This document shows, one piece after another, positions 5,047 to 42,644 of a stretch of 64,000 bases of DNA; the stretch's first letter is position 1; each line of letters starts with the position of its first letter. The stretch is from NCBI RefSeq assembly GCF_900104795.1, contig NZ_FNTG01000002.1, forward strand, positions 1 to 64,000. The letters run 5' to 3'. This DNA comes from Burkholderia sp. WP9. Lineage in GTDB: Bacteria; Pseudomonadota; Gammaproteobacteria; Burkholderiales; Burkholderiaceae. The notes beneath the pieces were generated by a model. The model was not told where the DNA came from, did no database searches, and was given only the letters and a program-made list of their open reading frames with translations. A program made the translations under genes and the position numbers.

Positions 5047-5958
5047 ATGGCCGCCATCGAATCGATCCAGCTCGGCAGCATCGAGCAATTTTGTAAAGCC
5101 GCGGAGTTGGGAAGTTTCACAGGCGCGGCCGAGGTTTTTGGCGTAACCCCGGCAGCGGTCAGTCGATCGATCAGTCGGCTCGAACAGCGCCTTGGTGTGC
5201 GCCTGTTTTCGCGGACAACGCGCAGCGTCAAGGTCACAAATGAAGGGGAGCTTTATTGGAAGGAGTGTCAGATAGCGCTCGATCAAATCGCCGAGGCCGA
5301 GCGCGCGATCACCGGCGCACAGACAGTGCCGAGTGGGCTGCTGCGCATCAGCGTCAGTGCCGCTTACGGGACATATCGCTTACTGCCTTTGATGCCCAGG
5401 TTCACCGAGGCCTATCCACAGATCGACATCGAGATAAGTATCTCCGACAAGATCATTGATTTTGTTGAAGAGGGGTTTGATCTTGCTATCCGATTAGGCA
5501 TCCAGCGTGATTCGCGACTGGTGGCATATAAGCTGGAGGATGCGTCTTTAGGCGTTTTCAGTACACCAGATTACTTACGTAGAAGAGGCACGCCGCTATC
5601 GCTCAATGACCTTGAGAAGCATAACTGCATTCAATACGTGTCCCCTAATACTGGGCGACCGATGCAGTGGTTGTTTACTGATGAAAAAGGGGCCGAGATT
5701 GAACAACCGATAAAGAGCCGAATGCGGGTACTCAATGATGCGCTAGGGTGCGTCGCCTGGGTCAATGCGAGCGGCGGCCTTTACCAGACCTACCGTTTCG
5801 CCGCGGCAGAAGCTTTAAAGCGTGGCGATCTCGTGGAGGTTCTTCAGAAATATGGTGGACGCTCCCGCCCGTTCTCCATCCTCTATCCACAGAATCGCCA
5901 CTTATCAGCGAAAGTGCGTGCGTTTGTCGACTTTCTACGGTCAGCCGTAAGCGCGTAG
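5047..5958 (+). CDS. LysR-family regulator divergent from the GST gene
   Basis: LysR-type regulator of 303 residues. The N-terminal winged helix-turn-helix is at about 8-65 (FCKAAELGSFTGAAEVFGVTPAAVSRSISRLEQRLGVRLFSRTTRSV), followed by a substrate-binding domain from about 95. Its style matches the CrgA/DmlR subgroup, with FVEEGFDLAIRLG. ATG 5047 (MAAIESIQLGS) is chosen because the upstream extension to 4972 is AT-rich and not LysR-like. It probably controls the divergent GST gene. The effector is unknown. Confidence 0.9.
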   Translation: MAAIESIQLGSIEQFCKAAELGSFTGAAEVFGVTPAAVSRSISRLEQRLGVRLFSRTTRSVKVTNEGELYWKECQIALDQIAEAERAITGAQTVPSGLLRISVSAAYGTYRLLPLMPRFTEAYPQIDIEISISDKIIDFVEEGFDLAIRLGIQRDSRLVAYKLEDASLGVFSTPDYLRRRGTPLSLNDLEKHNCIQYVSPNTGRPMQWLFTDEKGAEIEQPIKSRMRVLNDALGCVAWVNASGGLYQTYRFAAAEALKRGDLVEVLQKYGGRSRPFSILYPQNRHLSAKVRAFVDFLRSAVSA

Positions 5959-6386
5959 TCAGCGGAGCAAGCACAGTCCTTTCAGGATCTTCCAAAATTT
6001 ATCGTTCCGTGGACGCGACGGGTATGACTCGCCAGTATCAGCTACGCGTGATAGTCCGCTTTTAGCGGCGGAGCCGACTCACGGACCTCAATGTGAGCAC
6101 CTAAACGGACGTCCGCAGATGGCCGACCCCGGTTTGACACGGACCGCCACAACGCGCCGTCGTCGATCAGGCCGCATTCGACCCAAGTCGACCCACTGCG
6201 GTCAGATGACATTCTCCAAACCGGTCACTCGGCCGAGTTCATATTCTGCGAACCGAAGCGCCAACAAGCGGCCATTGGCGATTCCACCCTATCGGCCAAG
6301 AACGGACCTCTCGCAGTGGTTGCAAATCTTTGACAATTCATAGGCTGACGACGTAGGCGAATCGCGCCAACCGTGGCCGGCTTGCC
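5959..6386. other. Gene-free stretch between LysR and GNAT genes
   Basis: About 430 bp without a credible gene. From about 6100 to 6300 it has the GGCCGAC, GGCCATT and CGAACC-rich texture of the degenerate intergenic repeats seen more clearly near 26.4, 29.7 and 34.6 kb. I found no convincing hairpin terminator. Confidence 0.5.
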
Positions 6387-6824
6387 TTAAGGCACCAGAA
6401 CTTTCTTCATTGAAGGTGCGGGGTGTAACACATAGTTCTCTCGCTCATAGAACGGAACGGCGTCGGGTCGCGCGTCGAGAAATATCGCGGTCATACCACG
6501 AGCACGGGCGTCGGATTCGGCATATTCCATCAAGGATCGGCCAACACCGCTCCCTCGGCCCGTCGTATCTACCACGAGGTCATCGATATGAAGGTGTGCC
6601 CCGCGCGCCAACGTGCGGACGGGTCTCATGCCCATCACTCCGATAATCTTCCCATCGTGAAATGCTGCCACAAGCTCGTAGCCCGAATACGATTGCAGGC
6701 GGGTCCGCTCTAGGAATTCGCGTTCTTCGAGGGACCGAAGTTGAGCGATGACAGGGTATGCCTGCATCCATTCCGGCGGCGACAGCCTTCTCATTTCTAA
6801 CCTGCTGCAGCGATATTCAGTCAT
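6387..6824 (-). CDS. GNAT-family N-acetyltransferase
   Basis: Acetyltransferase of 145 residues that would transfer an acetyl group from acetyl-CoA to an amine. The acetyl-CoA pyrophosphate-binding loop is GRGSGVGRSLME (about 88-99), preceded by the beta-strand HIDDLVVD and followed by GMTAIFLDARPDAVPFYERENY, the usual C-terminal half of the fold. The acceptor is unknown. The gene stands alone, 126 bp from the 3' end of the first group II intron. Confidence 0.85.
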   Translation of the reverse strand: MTEYRCSRLEMRRLSPPEWMQAYPVIAQLRSLEEREFLERTRLQSYSGYELVAAFHDGKIIGVMGMRPVRTLARGAHLHIDDLVVDTTGRGSGVGRSLMEYAESDARARGMTAIFLDARPDAVPFYERENYVLHPAPSMKKVLVP

Positions 6825-6950
6825 GAGTCAAGTCGATCCATATTAGAAAAATCCAGATTTTTGCACGGAACCGCGAAGCGAGGTCTCTCGATAGGTTGGG
6901 CATTCGAAGGTCCGCTTCCGAGAAAAATGACCGGCGGCTCAGGGTCGAGG

Positions 6951-8858
6951 ATTGCGGTAGGGATGCCCATTACTGAGCACCCCCCGCACAGATCCCGGCG
7001 TGCCCAATTCGGGCACCGGGCTCCTACCTCGGGTGTTTGACGGCGAAGCGCCGATCAGGCCACGGATGAAGGATTCGAGGGGGCGGAAGCCAGGCATTGG
7101 CGATTCGTCTCATTCGCTCCCACGTCATGGCGTCCTTCTGACTGCGCCGCCGGAGCGTGCGCCGCCATAGATCGGTGACGTGATGTCGGAATGCGACGAG
7201 TGCCCGCGAGTTGGTAGGCACCGCGTGATACGCGAAGTATCCGCGAACCACCTGCCTGAGCCATTGCCCTTGCACTGGAATCGGTTCGTGCATGCGCTTC
7301 CGGAGCGCCTCCTTGATCTGCCTGAGTCTCGCCCGCATGCGATCCCCTCGGGTCTTCCGCTGTAACTGGAAAGCCCCGCGACGAGATCTGCCGCAGATAA
7401 AGATGAAACCCAGAAAGGTGAAGGTCTCCGGTCGGCCAAGACCCCGTCTCTGGCGGTTGACCGCTGCATAGCGGCCGAACTCCAGCAGTCTCGTCTTGTC
7501 CGGATGTAGCTCAAGCGAGAACTCTTCCAGCCTCGATCGCATCGCGTCCCAGAAGCGCCGCGCGTCAGCTTCGTGCTCGAAGCCGACAACGATGTCATCC
7601 GCATACCGCAGGATGATCACGTTGCCCGTTGCTTCCCGCCGTCGCCACCGGTTGGCCCAGAGATCGAAGACATAGTGCAGGTACACGTTCGCGAACAGCG
7701 GTGAAGCCACTGATCCCTGTGGTGTACCGGTCTCACTGACGCTCAGCTCTCCGTCTTCCAGAACACCCGCCTTGAGCCACTTGCGCACAAGGCGGATGAT
7801 GCGCTGGTCGCCGATCCGGTGCTCAATGAAACGGACTAGCCAACTCTGGCTAACCGAGTCGAAGAAGCTCCGAAGGTCCGCGTCCAGAATCCAGTTCACC
7901 GGGGTGTGGGTGATGGCCGTCGCTAACGCATCCAGCGCATCATGTTGACTACGCCCGGGCCGAAACCCGTACGAGAAACCAAGAAAGTCTTCCTCGTATA
8001 TCGCGTTCAGCACTTCCACCACCGCACGCTGGACGATCTTGTCTTCCAGCGCGGCAATCCCCAGCGGGCGCTGTTTGCCGTCCGGCTTCGGTATGTACTG
8101 TCGCCGAACAGGCAGTGCCCGGTACGCTCCGCTCTGTACCTGCGAGAACAGGCGCTGGAGATTCTCTTCCAGTCCTGCCTCGTAGTACCGCCACGTCAGG
8201 CCATCCACTCCGGGAGCCGCACTGCGTTTGAGCGCAAAGAATGCCATCCGAAGTCGGTCGACTGTGACGTGGTGTAGAAGCGCGGTGAACCGCTCCTTCT
8301 TCCGCTGTCTTGCAGCCTGCCGTACACGTTCCAGCCGCTGTGGCACGCTTGCCCGGTTCTGCGCCCGGTGCGTGTGTGGCTGACCCGTGTTCCCCTTGGT
8401 CCCCGCCCTTGGCTCCACCCACTCCGCAGCTGGTTCCCCAGCCTTGTTCGCAGGCTTCATCGCTACTACGGCGGAGTCTGACTTCTCCCGTCCGTTCATC
8501 ATCGGCTACGGCTCCTCGCCTTCCCGATGCGGACCTGTCCATCCTGCGACAGGCCAGACTGGAGATCTCCCGGTTCCCTAACAAGGAGCGTGCGCACATG
8601 CCAGGTTCTACGACCACGCCGGGTCATCCGGGCGCTCGCGATTGCGCGCTCAGACGTTTTGCCTTCCGCTACACAGACAGCGTCGGCACCCGGAATCAGT
8701 TTTCTATCGTGGCTCAATGGCTGGCCTGCACGTACCCCTGCCGACGCTTCGCCGACATCCTCGCGGATGCCTGCGCACGGCTCGGGGCCGATGTGGTTCG
8801 CTATTCCTTCATCGCAGTGGACTTGCACCACTTACTCCTTGCCGGTCTCCCGGCGCAC
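6951..8858 (-). mobile_element. Group II intron, copy 1 (minus strand)
   Basis: Complete 1908-bp group II intron. The 5' end is GTGCGCCGGGAGACCGG at 8858 and the 3' end is CCCTACCGCAAT at 6951, giving the expected GTGYG start and AY end. Domain IV carries the reverse transcriptase ORF. Domain V (about 6991-7023) has the GAGC catalytic triad region and a CCGG-TGCC stem, and domain VI offers a bulged A about 8 nt from the end. It has the same length as the opposite-strand copy at 8991-10898, and every reading frame I compared is identical, so both probably arose recently. The 5' exon ends CGCGTTTTCACACGG and the 3' exon starts CCT, as in copy 2. Confidence 0.9.
7024..8502 (-). CDS. ltrA: Group II intron reverse transcriptase/maturase, copy 1
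   Basis: Intron-encoded protein of 492 residues that splices its host intron and reverse-transcribes it during retrohoming. The order is: basic N-terminus; reverse transcriptase from about residue 85 (KPDGKQRPLGIAALEDKIVQRAV, then YGFRPGRSQHDAL, then LDADLRSFFDSV); the catalytic RYADD box at about 299-303; and a maturase X domain in the last 130 residues. It ends KHPR without an HNH endonuclease domain, so it is endonuclease-minus. The sequence is identical to the product at 9347-10825. Two consecutive ATG codons begin the frame. It is not a retron or DGR reverse transcriptase, because intron RNA domains surround it. Confidence 0.95.
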   Translation of the reverse strand: MMNGREKSDSAVVAMKPANKAGEPAAEWVEPRAGTKGNTGQPHTHRAQNRASVPQRLERVRQAARQRKKERFTALLHHVTVDRLRMAFFALKRSAAPGVDGLTWRYYEAGLEENLQRLFSQVQSGAYRALPVRRQYIPKPDGKQRPLGIAALEDKIVQRAVVEVLNAIYEEDFLGFSYGFRPGRSQHDALDALATAITHTPVNWILDADLRSFFDSVSQSWLVRFIEHRIGDQRIIRLVRKWLKAGVLEDGELSVSETGTPQGSVASPLFANVYLHYVFDLWANRWRRREATGNVIILRYADDIVVGFEHEADARRFWDAMRSRLEEFSLELHPDKTRLLEFGRYAAVNRQRRGLGRPETFTFLGFIFICGRSRRGAFQLQRKTRGDRMRARLRQIKEALRKRMHEPIPVQGQWLRQVVRGYFAYHAVPTNSRALVAFRHHVTDLWRRTLRRRSQKDAMTWERMRRIANAWLPPPRILHPWPDRRFAVKHPR

Positions 8859-36323: not shown

Positions 36324-36401
36324 GGCTCGTATGAGTAGTGGTCATAGGGGTAGAAGTATTTGGCGGAGATCCGAGGCACAAACATGCAGCCCCCCGTTTT
36401 T

Positions 36402-36535
36402 TGTGAATTTCCGGCATATAGGCGCCATTTCGTTTTCGGCGTAATGGCGCCACCGGATTTCCGGCGTAATGGAGCCACGGCGTTTTCGGCGTAAAGGCGC
36501 CAGTAGTTTTGCGGCGTAATGGCGCCACCCAGATG
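36402..36535 (+). repeat. Left-end array of five IS21 transposase-binding-type repeats
   Basis: Five tandem units about 25-27 bp apart share the core TTTCGGCGTAATGGCGCCA, with small changes: ATATAGGCGCC in the first unit, GGAGCC in the third and AAAGGCGCC in the fourth. IS21-family elements carry such multiple terminal repeats for IstA binding. They are not a CRISPR array: no unique spacers of constant length and no cas genes. Confidence 0.75.
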
Positions 36536-36770
36536 ACGAGCAGCGAGGGTTCGAACTTCATTGATCGGCTAGACTCCCGGCCTTTTGCCGGGAGAGGCCG
36601 TGGCCAATCGGAGGTTCGTTAGGCACGGGCGGAAATTAGGTTCAGAGGCGACACGGTGAGTGCCCTTGTACGCGGACTGTATCGTAGAGAGCCGCGATGC
36701 GACCTTTGTTGAAGCGCACCTAATTTCGGTGTACTCCTACCGATGCATACGTTGGTTCATGGAGGACATC

Positions 36771-38042
36771 ATGACTGTCAGCAAATTGGCGGCGGACTCA
36801 TCGCGCTGTGGCATAGCTATCGGGAGCCCCGTAGACGCCATCGTCTCCAAATACGTTGATCACTTGCTTGCCCTGCGATATGCGGACGATACGATTCAAC
36901 ACTATCTGGCCTCCTTGCGTCACTTTACGCATCGGCTGAACAAGAACAAGCGGTTGACCCTTGCCGATATCGATGATGCTCTCGTGACGGAGTTTGTCGA
37001 TGTTCATTTGCCGCATTGCAGATGTCCGCGACCGTGTATGCGCCATGTCAACACGGTACGCGCGGCTCTCCGCCATCTTCTGGCCGTTCTCAAGGAGGAA
37101 GGGTTGTGCAGCACCGTACGACCTCAGTTGCATACGCCGGTCGACATCGAACTAGAACTGTACAGGCATTATCTGGTGGATAGTTGCGGTTACGCGCAGA
37201 CCACTTGCCGTAACCGCCTTTGGCGGATTCGCCGCTTCCTCGACTCTGTCTTCGGTCAGGGTCAGGGGTCCGTGTCTGCCGGTCACCTGACTTCAATGGA
37301 TATTGAGGACTTCACCGCACGCTGTTTCAAAGGCCGGAGTCACGGGACACGTCGTAGCTACTGCGTTGATCTCGCAAGTTATCTGCGCTTTCGTGGCTTG
37401 AACGGAGATGACACTCGTGCTCTCTTCGCTGCGATCCCGAAGATGGCGCCACCAATGCCGGCGCCTCTGCCGATTGCGATGACCGAGAGGGAACTGGATC
37501 TCTTTTTCGCAGCGTTCGATTTGACCAAACCGATTGGCATGCGCGATTTCGCAATTGCACGGTTTTTGACCGATTTGGCGCTACGTCGCATGGAAGTCGT
37601 GCGACTGCAGTTGGAATCATTCGATTGGCAGAATGGAACGGTGACGCTGACTCATAACAAGGGCGGACGAGAACGCAAGCTACCGCTGCCGGTACAAACG
37701 GCCCACGCACTTGTCCGCTATTTACAATACGGACGGCCCGATACGAGTAATCGTGCCGTCTTTGTCCGGCAAATCGCGCCGTACGACATGCCGATTGACG
37801 CCGTTGCCATCAATCACCTCATCAGAGGCGCCTTTGTACGTGCAGGCCTCGACGAGCGATTTCATGGCGTCCACGTGTTGCGACGCACGGCAGCAACCCG
37901 CCTCATTCAAGGTGGGGCATCGCTAAAAGAAGTTGCCGATGTACTGGGGCACAGACATCTCAACACGACGACGCTTTACACCAGGGTTGATCTTGATCGT
38001 CTGCGCAAGGTAGCGCAACCATGGCCGGAGCATCGATCATGA
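36771..38042 (+). CDS. ritA: Tyrosine recombinase RitA of the trio
   Basis: 423-residue tyrosine recombinase. An N-terminal SAM-like core-binding region (about 20-110) includes YVDHLLALRYADDTIQHYLASLRHF. It is followed by a second SAM-like segment unusual for XerC-size enzymes, then the catalytic domain: Arg in TDLALRRMEVVRL, HVLRRTAATRL, LGHRHLNTTTLYTRVD with His and the nucleophilic Tyr. A Cys-rich HCRCPRPC sits near residue 83. GGAGG lies 5 bp before ATG 36771, which decides the start. Its stop overlaps the ritB start (ATGA). Confidence 0.88.
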   Translation: MTVSKLAADSSRCGIAIGSPVDAIVSKYVDHLLALRYADDTIQHYLASLRHFTHRLNKNKRLTLADIDDALVTEFVDVHLPHCRCPRPCMRHVNTVRAALRHLLAVLKEEGLCSTVRPQLHTPVDIELELYRHYLVDSCGYAQTTCRNRLWRIRRFLDSVFGQGQGSVSAGHLTSMDIEDFTARCFKGRSHGTRRSYCVDLASYLRFRGLNGDDTRALFAAIPKMAPPMPAPLPIAMTERELDLFFAAFDLTKPIGMRDFAIARFLTDLALRRMEVVRLQLESFDWQNGTVTLTHNKGGRERKLPLPVQTAHALVRYLQYGRPDTSNRAVFVRQIAPYDMPIDAVAINHLIRGAFVRAGLDERFHGVHVLRRTAATRLIQGGASLKEVADVLGHRHLNTTTLYTRVDLDRLRKVAQPWPEHRS

Positions 38043-38989
38043 ATGCGCCCCGACTTTGGACCGAGCGCATCGAAGACTACCTTGCGTATCGGCGCAACGC
38101 TGGATTTAATGTCGTGGGCGACGCGCCCAGACTGCGGCAATTCGGGCGGTTCGCTGATCGGCAGACGCCCCCGCAGTCACACCTTGTCGTCGAACTCGCC
38201 GTGGCATGGGCTCAATCGACGAAACGAAGTCAATACTTTACTTGGGCTCGGCGTCTTGAGCTGCTGCGGGGTTTTGCGCGGTACTGGCAGCGTTTCGATC
38301 CAGTGACCGAGGTGCCGCCAGGAAGGTTGCTCGGCAGAGCCTATCGCCGATTGACGCCACATATTTTCACTCAACAGGAAGTATCGATGCTGATGGCAGC
38401 TACCGCCGGCCTGCAGCCTCGGGATGGCCTGCGTCCTGCGACCTGCAAGACCATGATCGGGCTGCTCGCAGCAAGTGGACTACGCCCGATAGAGGCCACA
38501 CGCCTGACACGTAATGACGTCGATCTTGATCAGGGACTGCTGTTGGTCCAGGAAGCAAAAGGGCATCGAAGCCGCTTGATTCCATTGCATCCGAGCACCA
38601 CAGAGGCACTACGCACGTATGCTCAACAGCGTGATCGCCTCGTGCGCCAGCCAGGCAGCGACCGTTTTTTTCTGCTCGACAAAGGTAAGGCAGCCGGCGT
38701 ACCAACGCTCCAGTGCGCGTTGGAAACCCTATGCCGTCGACTCGGGTGGTTGCCACGAGGCGATTATGCGCATCATCGCTGTTATGACTTCAGACATAGT
38801 TTTGTCGCCAACAGTCTGTTGCGCGCCGACCGCCACGGGATCGATGCTGACCACGCAATCCTCGCGCTCTCGACTTATCTCGGCCACGCTTCAGTTGCCC
38901 ACACTTACTGGTACTGTACGGCGGTGCCGGAACTGATGGCAATCGTTGGAGAGCGCTTTCATCAGTATGCCAAAGGAGAATCGACATGA
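38039..38989 (+). CDS. ritB: Tyrosine recombinase RitB of the trio
   Basis: 316-residue tyrosine recombinase: N-terminal core-binding domain, then LLAASGLRPIEATRLTRNDVD (first catalytic Arg), YDFRHSFVANSLL (the second motif, where the usual His-x-x-Arg His is Tyr) and YLGHASVAHTYWYCTAVPEL (His, with the nucleophile Tyr in YWY). The altered second motif is worth noting. ATG 38039 overlaps the ritA stop by 4 bp, and its TGA overlaps the ritC ATG by 4 bp, so the three are translationally coupled. Confidence 0.87.
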   Translation: MNAPRLWTERIEDYLAYRRNAGFNVVGDAPRLRQFGRFADRQTPPQSHLVVELAVAWAQSTKRSQYFTWARRLELLRGFARYWQRFDPVTEVPPGRLLGRAYRRLTPHIFTQQEVSMLMAATAGLQPRDGLRPATCKTMIGLLAASGLRPIEATRLTRNDVDLDQGLLLVQEAKGHRSRLIPLHPSTTEALRTYAQQRDRLVRQPGSDRFFLLDKGKAAGVPTLQCALETLCRRLGWLPRGDYAHHRCYDFRHSFVANSLLRADRHGIDADHAILALSTYLGHASVAHTYWYCTAVPELMAIVGERFHQYAKGEST

Positions 38990-39996
38990 GCCTTGTCACC
39001 AGCCAGCCACAGGAGTTTGCCTCGCTCCTCCAGCGGTTCTTCGTCGAGCGGCTAATGCAGCAGCAGAATGCGAGTGCAAGAACGGTCGAATCATACCGTG
39101 ACACCTTCCGTATGCTATTGACCTACGCTCAGCAAGTGTTGCATAAGCCGCCCGAGAAGTTAACTCTCGACGAGCTCGACGTCACATTGATCACTGCCTT
39201 TCTGGACCACCTCGAAACTGCACGATCCAATAGCATTCGCAGTCGCAATGCCCGGCTTTCCGCAATACGGACCTTCTACCACTATGTCACGATGCGATGT
39301 CCGCAAGCACTGCACCTGGCTCAACAAATTCTCTCGATCCCAACGAAACGTTTCGAGAGACCGCTTCTCGGATTTCTCTCACGTGAGGAAGTTCACGCCT
39401 TGTTGGGTGCGCCCGATCCGGATACGTGGTTCGGGCAGCGCGACCGTCTATTGCTCGCACTGCTGTACAACACTGGAGCCCGAGTGTCGGAGCTGACAGG
39501 AATGCGGGTAGCCGATGTAACGCTCGCTGCGACGCCGTGGGTACGCCTGCATGGCAAGGGGCGGAAGCAGCGTGCCGTACCCCTATGGCGTGAAACTGCG
39601 GCAGCGATACGCACCTGGATACGTAACCAGCGTTTACAACCGGAACAGCCGCTGCTGCCAAGTCGCCATGGCGGACCAATGACGCGCGCAAACGTGGCTG
39701 AACGATTTTCGCTGGCACTGACGGCAGCAGCGAAGACCTGTCCATCGCTTCTGAAGCGCCATATTACCCCGCATTCCATGAGGCACACGGTTGCCACGCA
39801 TCTCTTGCAGGCCGGTGTAGGTATCACCGAGGTTGCGCTCTGGCTCGGACATGAAAGCCCCCTGACGACGCACGGCTATGTCGAGGCAGATCAGGCAATG
39901 AAGCGCCGAGCACTTGCGGCGGTGAAAGCGCCCAGAGTCAAGGTGCCTTTTTATCGCCCACCCGATTCACTGCTCAAATTTCTGGAAAGCCTTTGA
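38986..39996 (+). CDS. ritC: Tyrosine recombinase RitC of the trio
   Basis: 336-residue XerC/D-like recombinase with the full catalytic set: LYNTGARVSELTGMRV (Arg), LHGKGRKQRAVPLW (Lys beta-hairpin), HSMRHTVATHLLQAG (His-x-x-Arg) and LGHESPLTTHGYVEAD (His, Tyr). The N-terminal phage-integrase SAM-like domain is at about 8-90. It is the most canonical of the three, and the frame ends 118 bp before the right inverted end of the RIT. Confidence 0.9.
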   Translation: MSLVTSQPQEFASLLQRFFVERLMQQQNASARTVESYRDTFRMLLTYAQQVLHKPPEKLTLDELDVTLITAFLDHLETARSNSIRSRNARLSAIRTFYHYVTMRCPQALHLAQQILSIPTKRFERPLLGFLSREEVHALLGAPDPDTWFGQRDRLLLALLYNTGARVSELTGMRVADVTLAATPWVRLHGKGRKQRAVPLWRETAAAIRTWIRNQRLQPEQPLLPSRHGGPMTRANVAERFSLALTAAAKTCPSLLKRHITPHSMRHTVATHLLQAGVGITEVALWLGHESPLTTHGYVEADQAMKRRALAAVKAPRVKVPFYRPPDSLLKFLESL

Positions 39997-40016
39997 GTTT
40001 ATTAGGTGAAGCATTC

Positions 40017-40083
40017 GAGCGAGTGACCTCGCTCCCAAGTTCCCTTCCCGGGCCAGACGATAGCCTCACAACCCCGGGAAGGG
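40017..40083. repeat. Two hairpins at the right end of the RIT element
   Basis: GAGCGAG-TGAC-CTCGCTC (40017-40034) is followed by CCCTTCCCGGG (40042-40052), which pairs perfectly with CCCGGGAAGGG (40073-40083). Both lie between the ritC stop and the right inverted end. They could terminate ritABC transcription or be structural parts of the recombination end; neither is followed by a T-run. Confidence 0.6.
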
Positions 40084-40138
40084 CCTCCCCAATCCGCTGC
40101 CTCATATTCAACCGAACCTAATTTTCTGACTTACCTAA

Positions 40139-40170
40139 CGAACCTTAGGTGAAGCTTCACCTAAGGTTCG
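40139..40170. repeat. Perfect 32-bp palindrome ahead of istA
   Basis: CGAACCTTAGGTGAAG at 40139-40154 is followed directly by its exact reverse complement at 40155-40170, with no loop. The palindrome overlaps the last 5 bp of the RIT right end and lies 2 bp before the istA ATG at 40173. TTAGGTGAAG also occurs at 40001-40010. It may be a recombinase site, a RIT insertion target or an istA operator. Confidence 0.85.
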
Positions 40171-40172
40171 AG

Positions 40173-41696
40173 ATGTACCAATACCGACAGATCCTGGTGC
40201 GCATGCGCCGAGGCGACTCTGACCGGGATATCGCACGATCGAAGACCATGGGGCGCAAGAAGATTGCGCAGGTGCGGGAGATTGCCGCCAGGAACGGATG
40301 GTTGGCGCGTGAAGCGGTTTTGCCCGACGAACACGTAATGGCCGCTTTCCTGGATCGCAAAGAGGCGCCGCTACCATCGAGCTGCGTCTCAACGTTGGAA
40401 CCGTGGCGGGAGCAGATCGCCAAGTGGCGGGCAACCGGAGTTCAATGCACGACGATCCACTCCACGCTCGTTCGCAACCACGGATACGGCGGCAGCTATT
40501 CGTCGGTCTATCGTTTCCTTCTGCATATAGATGCATCGCACACGCCCGACGTGCCGCTGCGCCTGGAATTCAAGCCGGCCGAAGCGGCCCAGGTTGATTT
40601 CGGCGCTGGTCCGATGATGACCGACGCGCTCACCGGCGAGATCCACAAGACATGGTTCTTCGTCATGACCCTGGCCTGGTCGCGCCACCAATATGTTGAG
40701 TTTGTCCGAGACCAGACGGTAGCAACCTGGCTGGGATGTCACCGGCGCGCGTTCGAGGCATTTGGTGGTGTGCCGGCTCGGGTCATCATCGACAATTGCA
40801 AGTGTGCGATCACGCGCGCGTGCTATTACGAGCCCGAGGTGCAACGCGCGTACGGCGAGTGCGCAGAAGGATACGGTTTCAAGATTGATGCTTGTCCGCC
40901 AAGGGATCCGCAAAAAAAGGGAATCGTGGAATCGGGCGTCAAATTTGTGAAGCGAGGCTTCTTGCCCTTACGCGAGTTTCGTGGCGTGGCTGACGCCAAT
41001 CGCCAGGTACACGCGTGGGTGATGAACGAAGCCGGCAACCGCATTCACGGTACGACTCGCGACATGCCGCTCAAGCGCTTCGCGGAAGTTGAACGAAGCC
41101 TGCTGATCAGCTTGCCGGACGTGCTGCCGGAGCTTGCCGTGTGGGCGAAGGCCAAGGTGCACCGCGACGCTCATGTCCAGTTCGAGCAGAGTTTTTACTC
41201 GGTCCCGTATAGGCTGGTCGGCCAGGAACTGTGGCTCAAGGCGACCGACACCATGGTGACGCTGTATCGCGGGCAGGAATCGGTCGCAGCCCACGCCCGC
41301 CTTACTCGCGCAGGCGGCCGTCGCACGGTAGACGATCATCTGCCATCCGCTGCCCAGGCGTGGCAACTGCAGGACACCCAGTGGTGTTTGGCAGCTGCTG
41401 AGCAGATCGGGCCTGCCTGCTATGCCCTGGTTCAGGCGCTCTTCGGCGACAAAGTCTTAATCAAGATGCGCTCGGTGCAAGGCGTTTTGCGGCTCAAACA
41501 GAAATACGGAGCAGTCCGCCTTGAAGCTGCCTGCTCGCGCGCCAACCACTACGGCACGCCGCACTACACGGCCGTTAAAACCATTCTGCAAAAGGGATTG
41601 GATCAGCTGACGCTGTTAAACGCCTTTGATGCGCTGGCGAGCACCTACACCGAAGGCGGCCGTTTCTGCCGCAACACACAAACCATTCTCCAATAA
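40173..41696 (+). CDS. istA: IS21-family transposase IstA
   Basis: 507-residue DDE transposase. The N-terminal helix-turn-helix is ILVRMRRGDSDRDIARSKTMGRKKIAQVREIA. The integrase core shows AAQVDFGAGP (Asp142), RVIIDNCKCA (Asp207) and DPQKKGIVESGVKFVKRGFL (Glu253), followed by a beta-barrel C-terminal domain. ATG 40173 (MYQYRQIL) is preferred over GTG 40149, which lies inside the perfect palindrome. It works with IstB, which begins 8 bp after its stop. Confidence 0.93.
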   Translation: MYQYRQILVRMRRGDSDRDIARSKTMGRKKIAQVREIAARNGWLAREAVLPDEHVMAAFLDRKEAPLPSSCVSTLEPWREQIAKWRATGVQCTTIHSTLVRNHGYGGSYSSVYRFLLHIDASHTPDVPLRLEFKPAEAAQVDFGAGPMMTDALTGEIHKTWFFVMTLAWSRHQYVEFVRDQTVATWLGCHRRAFEAFGGVPARVIIDNCKCAITRACYYEPEVQRAYGECAEGYGFKIDACPPRDPQKKGIVESGVKFVKRGFLPLREFRGVADANRQVHAWVMNEAGNRIHGTTRDMPLKRFAEVERSLLISLPDVLPELAVWAKAKVHRDAHVQFEQSFYSVPYRLVGQELWLKATDTMVTLYRGQESVAAHARLTRAGGRRTVDDHLPSAAQAWQLQDTQWCLAAAEQIGPACYALVQALFGDKVLIKMRSVQGVLRLKQKYGAVRLEAACSRANHYGTPHYTAVKTILQKGLDQLTLLNAFDALASTYTEGGRFCRNTQTILQ

Positions 41697-41704
41697 GGCC
41701 GGCC

Positions 41705-42493
41705 ATGCATCCCATTCCTGAATTGACTCCACTGCTTAAGCAGTTGCGCTTGTCCGGCATCCTCGATTCGCTGGAAGCGCGAAACCGCGAGGCCATCGAT
41801 CGCAAGCTTGCCTTCACCGAATTCCTTTCGCTGCTCATTCACGACGAAGTAGCCCGGCGCGATAACAAGAAGCTCAGCCTGCGCATGCGACGCGCCAACT
41901 TCCGTAGCCAGAAGACGCTCGAAGGATTCGACTTCGACCGGCTACCAGGGCTGAATCGATCCGCTATCCATGATCTCGCCACGTGCCGATTTATTGACGA
42001 GAAGGTGGCGGTCCTGATTGCCGGGCCTTGCGGAACGGGGAAAAGCCATCTTGCGCAAGCCCTCGGACACGCTGCAGCTCGGCAAGGACACGATGTGCTG
42101 TTCTCAACACAAAGCCAATTATTAGCAAGCCTGCGCAGCGCGGCAGCCGTGGGCACTTACGACCGTCGTTTCCAGTATCTCGCCAAGCTTCCACTTCTGA
42201 TCATTGACGACTTTGGTCTTAAGCCACTGCGTTCGCCAGACGATGAAGACTTCCACGACCTGATCGCCGAGCGTTATGAGCGCGCAGCAACGATTTTAAC
42301 GTCGAATTTGGACTTCCCAGAATGGGGGGAAGCATTCCCAGGTAACAAGATGATCGGCGCTGCAACCCTCGACCGCTTGCGTCATGGCGCTCACAAAATC
42401 GTCCTCGACGGCGAGAGCTATCGCGGACTCAAACCGGGCGTCGAAACACTCAGAACCGAGCTTGCAAAAGGAGGCAAAATCAAGCAACCTTGA
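41705..42493 (+). CDS. istB: IS21 helper ATPase IstB
   Basis: 262-residue AAA+ ATPase of the IstB/DnaC family: Walker A GPCGTGKSHLAQALGHAA (about 105), Walker B LLIIDDFGLKPL (about 167), then the sensor-type ATILTSNLDFPEWGEAF. It remodels target DNA and stimulates IstA. The N-terminal helical region LTPLLKQLRLSGILDSLEARN is typical. It ends 84 bp before the right end of the IS. Confidence 0.94.
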   Translation: MHPIPELTPLLKQLRLSGILDSLEARNREAIDRKLAFTEFLSLLIHDEVARRDNKKLSLRMRRANFRSQKTLEGFDFDRLPGLNRSAIHDLATCRFIDEKVAVLIAGPCGTGKSHLAQALGHAAARQGHDVLFSTQSQLLASLRSAAAVGTYDRRFQYLAKLPLLIIDDFGLKPLRSPDDEDFHDLIAERYERAATILTSNLDFPEWGEAFPGNKMIGAATLDRLRHGAHKIVLDGESYRGLKPGVETLRTELAKGGKIKQP

Positions 42494-42524
42494 TCCCCGT
42501 TCGAGCCCTCGAATTGCCCGTTTC

Positions 42525-42577
42525 CAGTGGCGTCATTACGGCGAAAATGCCCGGCGCCATTACGCCGAAAGGTGACA
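42525..42577 (-). repeat. Right-end repeats of the IS21-type element
   Basis: On the minus strand, TTTCGGCGTAATGGCGCC followed by TTTTCGCCGTAATGACGCC gives two further units of the left-end repeat in inverted orientation. The element ends at 42577, followed by TTTTT. Confidence 0.75.
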
Positions 42578-42644
42578 TTTTTGTCTTCGTTACAGTCAGC
42601 GACATGAAGACAGCAAAGTTCGCGTCCTGCGGCTCAGAAACATA

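Follow-up and report, generated by a model that had tools for sequence, protein, structure and literature searches.

We analyzed a window of 64,000 nucleotides from Burkholderia sp. WP9 (RefSeq assembly GCF_900104795.1, contig NZ_FNTG01000002.1, positions 1 to 64,000 of the forward strand), which harbors an IS21-family element interrupted by a recombinase-in-trio (RIT) element. We hold with considerable confidence, from sequence comparison, that the RIT element occupies the likely 5′ codons of the IS21 transposase gene istA, a site reused in three other IS21 lineages, that the pair likely forms one mobile unit, and that its own recombinases are predicted to drive both the insertion and the flipping of the RIT core. 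The trio is likely to be a specialized hitchhiker.

An empty site defines the insertion

The same IS21 element without the trio is present on a Paraburkholderia fungorum plasmid (NZ_CP099646, locus L012). The joined flanks of the window element and this empty counterpart both measure 2624 bp and are 97.4% identical. Relative to the empty site, the insert comprises 3552 bp, namely the unique segment 36619-40163 and a 7-bp duplication of AGGTTCG, and therefore the empty junction is 36618|40171. The 32-bp palindrome at 40139-40170, beyond the ritC-side inverted end, is part of the insert. An earlier note on this DNA, made from the letters of the window, had placed the RIT element between the IS21 left-end repeats and istA, with a junction rejoining 36613 to 40144. 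The comparison relocates the target to within the istA 5′ codons (the start codon being predicted), replaces that junction, and shifts the right boundary to 40163/40170, beyond the palindrome.

The nesting itself, as claimed by that note, is borne out by the trio genes, the inverted ends and the RIT-free relative. It had implied a homologue from which the trio is precisely absent, which L012 is, and related IS21 elements without the trio. A motif scan of the fetched loci detected an uninterrupted istA start in 24 loci (three of them copies from two related strains), a count that does not measure relatives lacking such a motif, the contiguous L034 having been missed. The codons read N-R-R-F-E in 18, R-R-R-F-E in three and R-K-F-E in three; the scan also returned two occupied loci of the own genome.

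Three copies in one genome

A second 6176-bp composite, 100% identical to that of the window, lies at C1:1361816-1367991 between GATGA repeats, and the flanks of the two diverge directly outside the 5-bp repeats (20-25 bases shown). A third copy, on C3, is bordered by ACAGC repeats. Its IS21 parts are 99.8-100% identical to the window, and its 3534-bp RIT core is 100% identical and inverted, within the shared 12-bp end AGGTTCGTTAGG; its istA is split by an insertion of ~7.3 kb. The TTTTT of the window is by itself weak evidence of duplication, being a homopolymer, but the two further copies have GATGA and ACAGC, so that three separate IS21 transpositions are indicated by as many distinct 5-bp repeats. 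Movement of the composite best accounts for the identical copies in the window and on C1. The earlier note's suggestion that the composite may be mobile as a unit of 6176 bp gains support from the identical copy with its own 5-bp repeat, and the search that it proposed for the same composite elsewhere found it on C1 and, with the core inverted, on C3.

The outer element belongs to the IS21 family by its terminal repeats, its TTTTT, GATGA and ACAGC duplications, and its IstA and IstB, both of which score above the curated NCBIfam cut-offs (NF033546, 255.6 versus 160; NF038214, 257.8 versus 200). It retains both ends, intact istA and istB frames and the TTTTT duplication, as the note had read it.

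In other copies istA is also the target of a second element. The genes of C3, Caballeronia sp. SBC2 and G070 are cut at or beside the conserved DPQKKG/IVES codons, as judged from compared junctions for C3 and SBC2 and from a tblastn split for G070. The istA-splitting inserts lie at L010 6311-13632, L013 2968-6290 and L079 7721-11041. The SBC2 insert, of 3.3 kb, carries the gene for a large serine recombinase (PF00239, PF07508), whereas that in C3 includes, by eye, IS5-like and IS66-like open reading frames.

Relatives of the RIT element share the target

We scanned the own genome, 144 genomes of the genus, a sample of 398 genomes of the family and GTDB contigs. RIT elements at least 82% identical to that of the window (hereafter the subfamily) occupy at least nine loci in seven genomes, a lower bound set by the two candidates scored per genome in the genus and family scans. 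Three loci are in the own genome, and one each in G101 (L027/L078), G070 (L028/L079), Caballeronia calidae (G426, L020), C. arationis (G430, L021), Paraburkholderia sp. CNPSo 3274 (G113, L019/L029) and G095 (L036). Fragments resembling the window RIT in G091 (214 bp, 86%) and G139 (74 bp, 93%), and L064 (66%), were left out of the nine. The viral contigs held no relative of the window RIT. The exact tail pattern described below occurs in two of the 398 family genomes, one being the own genome, and is too strict for an occupancy count.

The istA 5′ junction is present in all nine of the subfamily loci found, and istA lies on the other side in six. Among the window, L027, L028 and L020, the RIT cores are 87.3-94.1% alike over the aligned parts, compared to 66.8-79.3% for the IS21 elements, of which just 334-476 bp align in the case of L027. 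Because the RIT cores are more alike than their IS21 hosts, repeated insertion at one site is favored over co-inheritance. In addition, an uninterrupted IS21 element (L039) matches that of L028 at 96.7% identity. In the C. calidae composite, the repeats read CATGG, istA has 507 amino acids and istB is present; the G070 composite has CGTGG repeats and an istA split by a second element; and the G101 composite keeps only pieces of istA and istB. Of the other loci, L036 has ~1 kb of the RIT core left, L019/L029 has a group II intron-like end instead of the tail adjoining one RIT end, and L021 carries the IS21 istA leader at both RIT ends (1677 and 5207) and no tail. An interpretation of this two-leader form as a special product was dropped, recombination between two oppositely placed RIT copies being simpler.

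Cupriavidus necator pENH92 carries, at L018 (5108-8261), a rit trio distinct from that of the window, placed after an istA that is cut close to the same DPQKKGIVESGVK codons. The istA start site of this locus is empty, and the trio adjoins further recombinase genes.

The tail lies on the downstream side of the target

For other RIT elements, 21 loci were taken from the 40 listed of 261 plasmid records with a RitC relative and combined with L018 and L022-L026 to give 27, of which 17 have resolved RIT ends. A palindrome stands at one end in 11 of these 17 by script (arm of at least 8) and, imperfectly and by eye, in L068, L086 and L090; none was seen at the resolved ends of L024 (cut), L075 and L084 (3 of 17). 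Nine loci in which both flanks form one recognizable gene were used to derive a rule for the tail. Those outside it are L024, L026, L077, L085 and L089 (target gene unrecognized), L084 (no tail), L086 (one flank foreign) and L075 (introns at both ends). All nine used loci have an extra (near-)palindromic tail of ~20 bp that separates the downstream half of the target from the adjacent RIT end. The target is an IS66-type gene cut at an ALG|RKN motif in L023, L068, L071, L072, L073, L074, L076 and L087, identified by translation and for some also by neighboring annotation, and one further gene, by eye only, in L090; the tails of L068 and L090 are imperfect and were read by eye. Together with five IS21 loci (the window, C3, L027, L028 and L020, with C1 excluded as a duplicate), the tail lies on the downstream side of the target in all 14 usable loci, with the core forward in seven and reverse in seven. 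No p-value is attached to this rule, because the loci are not all independent: L071 and L072 have an identical core, and those of L073 and L074 are 98.9% alike.

Both RIT ends of L075 adjoin a group II intron end with an annotated ltrA (837-2253 and 5600-7016), within inverted flanks that also hold an integrase and, on the side covered that far, an IS91 gene. The RIT-adjoining end sequence of L019 (up to 3638) is common to the L075 intron end. The RIT palindrome may be a target of group II introns.

A double-headed attachment site could permit flipping

We propose that the core site has the form arm-N6-arm (CCTAA-GGTTCG-TTAGG). In a putative circle, the RIT ends would be joined via a 20-bp palindromic linker between two inverted core sites, and integration at the asymmetric istA site would leave the linker on the istA side. 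Integration alone would couple the orientations of core and linker; the core would flip if the left site recombined with the inner one, which is inverted (site I).

Two pairs of other RIT elements depart from such coupling. L071 and L076 (cores 92.5% alike) share the linker in the same orientation with the core opposite, whereas L073 and L074 (cores 98.9% alike) have the core in the same orientation and 20-bp linkers that are exact reverse complements. Provided that the linker moves together with the element, one further inversion is needed in each pair, most simply of the core between the left site and site I, and recombination at inverted sites inside the element explains the uncoupling best. 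Moreover, the 6-bp spacer of L073 and L074 (GAGGAA and GAGAAA) differs in concert at the three copies of the site, a pattern suggestive of exchange between the inner site and the target side. The attL and attR spacers are unequal in L020, L027, L068, L071 and L072, which is compatible with the rule of strand-biased circularizing integrative elements (SE; PMC10214605), by which attL has the target spacer and attR the donor spacer. This rule is not established here, as site I reads CCGAAA and attR CCGTAA in L071 and L072.

Genes and ends of the RIT element

The features of the composite are listed in Table 1. PF00589 was detected in each of the three recombinase genes, which overlap in the ATGA manner, in agreement with the earlier note. 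The inverted ends span 32 nucleotides at 81% complementarity, arranged by eye as 12 + 9 + 11 bp. The number and overlap of the genes, the insert of 3552 bp (~3.5 kb), the 32-nucleotide ends, the 32-bp palindrome and the occurrence at several loci fit a RIT. For each of the six subfamily cores that were compared, a GC-rich hairpin is predicted after ritC. RitA has a SAM-like domain at residues 64-148 (whole-protein E-value 4.4e-8; no stretch significant alone), followed by a XerD-type match at 168-452. In the RIT passages of PMC8138268, RitA has two sequential N-terminal core-binding domains and RitC an extra C-terminal helix; the domain order of the present RitA is consistent, if not conclusively, with the former layout.

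Table 1. Features of the composite element in the window
Feature	Coordinates	Strand	Basis or remark
IS21-family element with RIT (composite, 6176 bp)	36402..42577	+	identical copy at G000:C1:1361816-1367991
TTTTT 5-bp target repeat, left copy	36397..36401	.	sequence
IS21 left end, units of 25-bp period	36402..36531	+	repeat family D1 at 36407-36531
Predicted native istA start, GGGAGAGG ribosome site and GTG 36600	36590..36618	+	inferred from the N-terminus conserved in uninterrupted relatives
AGGTTCG, left 7-bp target repeat / left attachment site	36612..36618	+	6-bp spacer GGTTCG 36613-36618
RIT ritA-side terminal inverted repeat	36612..36643	+	inverted repeat I1
ritA, tyrosine recombinase	36660..38042	+	longest open reading frame; in-frame ATGs also at 36759 and 36771
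ritB, tyrosine recombinase	38021..38989	+	longest open reading frame; ATG 38039 gives ATGA overlap with ritA stop
ritC, tyrosine recombinase	38986..39996	+	open reading frame and PF00589
GC-rich hairpin after ritC	40042..40083	+	terminator-like, without T run; coordinates by eye
RIT ritC-side terminal inverted repeat	40114..40145	-	inverted repeat I1
Inner core site (site I), CCTAA-CGAACC-TTAGG	40134..40149	.	inverted relative to left site
32-bp perfect palindrome (tail)	40139..40170	.	istA side in either core orientation
AGGTTCG, right 7-bp target repeat / right attachment site	40164..40170	+	sequence
istA	40173..41696	+	507 aa open from ATG 40173; 515 aa from GTG 40149 (in tail)
istB	41705..42493	+	open reading frame and NCBIfam profile
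IS21 right terminal inverted repeat	42544..42577	-	repeat search
TTTTT 5-bp target repeat, right copy	42578..42582	.	sequence

The RIT element severs the likely native GTG and GGGAGAGG from the remaining istA. In the window, the tail provides AAGG six bases ahead of an ATG, and by eye an in-frame stop codon stands ahead of this restart. The corresponding position carries AAGG with TTG in L027 and AAGG with GTG in L028. The restart frame is open over 507 amino acids in the window and L020 and over 24 in L027; L028 and C3 have it split. It is possible that IstA is made from codon 8 and is slightly shorter: with AAGG and the in-frame ATG left after loss of the native start, a shorter IstA could still enable the IS21 element to carry its passenger. 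A predicted mRNA hairpin reaches -28.4 kcal/mol, compared to a shuffle mean of -12.6 (z -5.2; one of 200 shuffles as good); the 32-bp palindrome, folded in the mRNA over AAGG, could damp IstA.

Alternative explanations

Several observations weigh against the reading of a target-specific, flipping RIT element carried by its host. Three of the nine subfamily loci (L019, L021 and L036) are rearranged or truncated, and where istA lies on the other side, as in six loci, it is open at full length in only three (the window, C1 and L020); it is split by another element in C3 and L028, and L027 has only pieces and the 24-residue restart frame. The restart of L020 is AAGA with TTG rather than AAGG. RefSeq puts the istA start of L012 at codon 8, a later ATG, and for this reason we infer, rather than observe, the upstream native start (GTG 36600). 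Among the other RIT elements, 10 of 27 loci are without resolved ends (L018, L022, L025, L066, L067, L069, L070, L083, L088 and L091), and in L084, where no tail was seen, the IS66-type flank is cut at another codon. The circle-like 21-mer occurs in 14 of 82 fetched loci, all of them own-genome copies and all at site I. No circle junction and no mixed orientation within one sample was seen, and both circle and flipping are predictions from sequence. Finally, C3 differs from the window at 4 of 2646 bp in the IS21 part, versus 0 of 3534 bp in the RIT core (Fisher p 0.034).

This last imbalance would fit a genuine RIT insertion of which the flipped C3 copy represents a second, independent event, in the opposite orientation and into another IS21 copy; the palindromic circle junction would permit either orientation of integration. 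The test is weak, since the IS21 parts are also 99.8-100% identical, and the uncoupled core and linker in the two other RIT pairs could not result from such a circle integrating once. We regard a second insertion as possible, though less likely than a flip in place.

Alternatively, the composite might be inert, its istA inactivated by the RIT element and its second copy made by segmental duplication. The likely native istA start is indeed lost, and istA is broken in three of the six composites (C3, L028 and L027). With C1 and window flanks that differ directly outside the 5-bp repeats and istA open over 507 amino acids in the window and C. calidae composites, we find this improbable. Even less probable is that the core was inverted when its ends recombined by ordinary homology, with no part played by the recombinases: perfect inverted repeats are present at the ends, but the identical stretch is just 12 bp (32 bp at 81%), short for RecA, and the exchange falls in the segment holding the 6-bp spacer. 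A compound IS21 element of which the trio is a fixed component, inherited vertically with istA and istB, would suit the two identical composites in the own genome and is refuted by the existence of empty sites, both the precise absence in L012 and the 24 uninterrupted istA starts among relatives, in addition to RIT elements far more alike than their IS21 hosts.

Comparison with known systems and implications

Compared to other members of the IS21 family, the window element shares the ends, 5-bp repeats, istA and istB, and differs in bearing a foreign site-specific element in the likely first istA codons. Invertible DNA switched by tyrosine recombinases likewise flips between short inverted core sites; the segment predicted to flip here is a mobile element that encodes the recombinases. 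Within the passages on RIT elements of Cupriavidus metallidurans CH34 in PMC2864759 and PMC3414803, the shared features are three overlapping recombinase genes, a length of ~3.5 kb, inverted ends with an overlapping palindrome, and insertion in transposase genes (IS66 tnpA, Tn6049-like); RIT elements in transposase genes and the palindrome at one end are thus already in print. The passages also mention two strains that share nearly identical Tn::RIT composites at a single genomic location, and they report neither the 6-bp spacer anatomy, the tail rule and the flip, nor the IS21 istA target and movement with an intact host transposon.

Multiple tyrosine recombinases, together with imperfect inverted arms that enclose a 6-bp spacer, are likewise features of SE, GInt and Tn554, according to the relevant parts of PMC10214605. 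Four genes, not all of which encode recombinases, are conserved in SE and GInt, and their joint site is single, whereas the window RIT has three genes, all PF00589, and two inverted sites with a palindromic linker. The RIT passage of PMC3414803 states that mobility had not been experimentally demonstrated, and the comparison table of PMC10214605 gives features of RIT movement as untested. Among the matches listed from the open-access literature, a scope outside which Ricker 2013, the main RIT paper, falls, there is no report of the IS21 istA site, of the tail rule, of the flipped copy or of the moving composite; the RIT passage of PMC2864759, the sole open-access match for both terms, draws no link between RIT and IS21.

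In a wider view, to which we give an even chance, RIT elements would be transposase-targeting hyperparasites with a double-headed attachment site, in which the palindromic linker between two inverted core sites would allow entry into a conserved transposase codon motif either way and continued flipping in place. In this IS21 branch, the insertion would spare the transposase, so that the RIT element travels on its victim. The locus presents a case of a site-specific element settled in the transposase gene of a transposon with the frame left open. Its target and its empty site are defined exactly, the same genome shows both orientations, and the anatomical rule lends itself to checks in further RIT elements, which makes it testable how three recombinases move one element.

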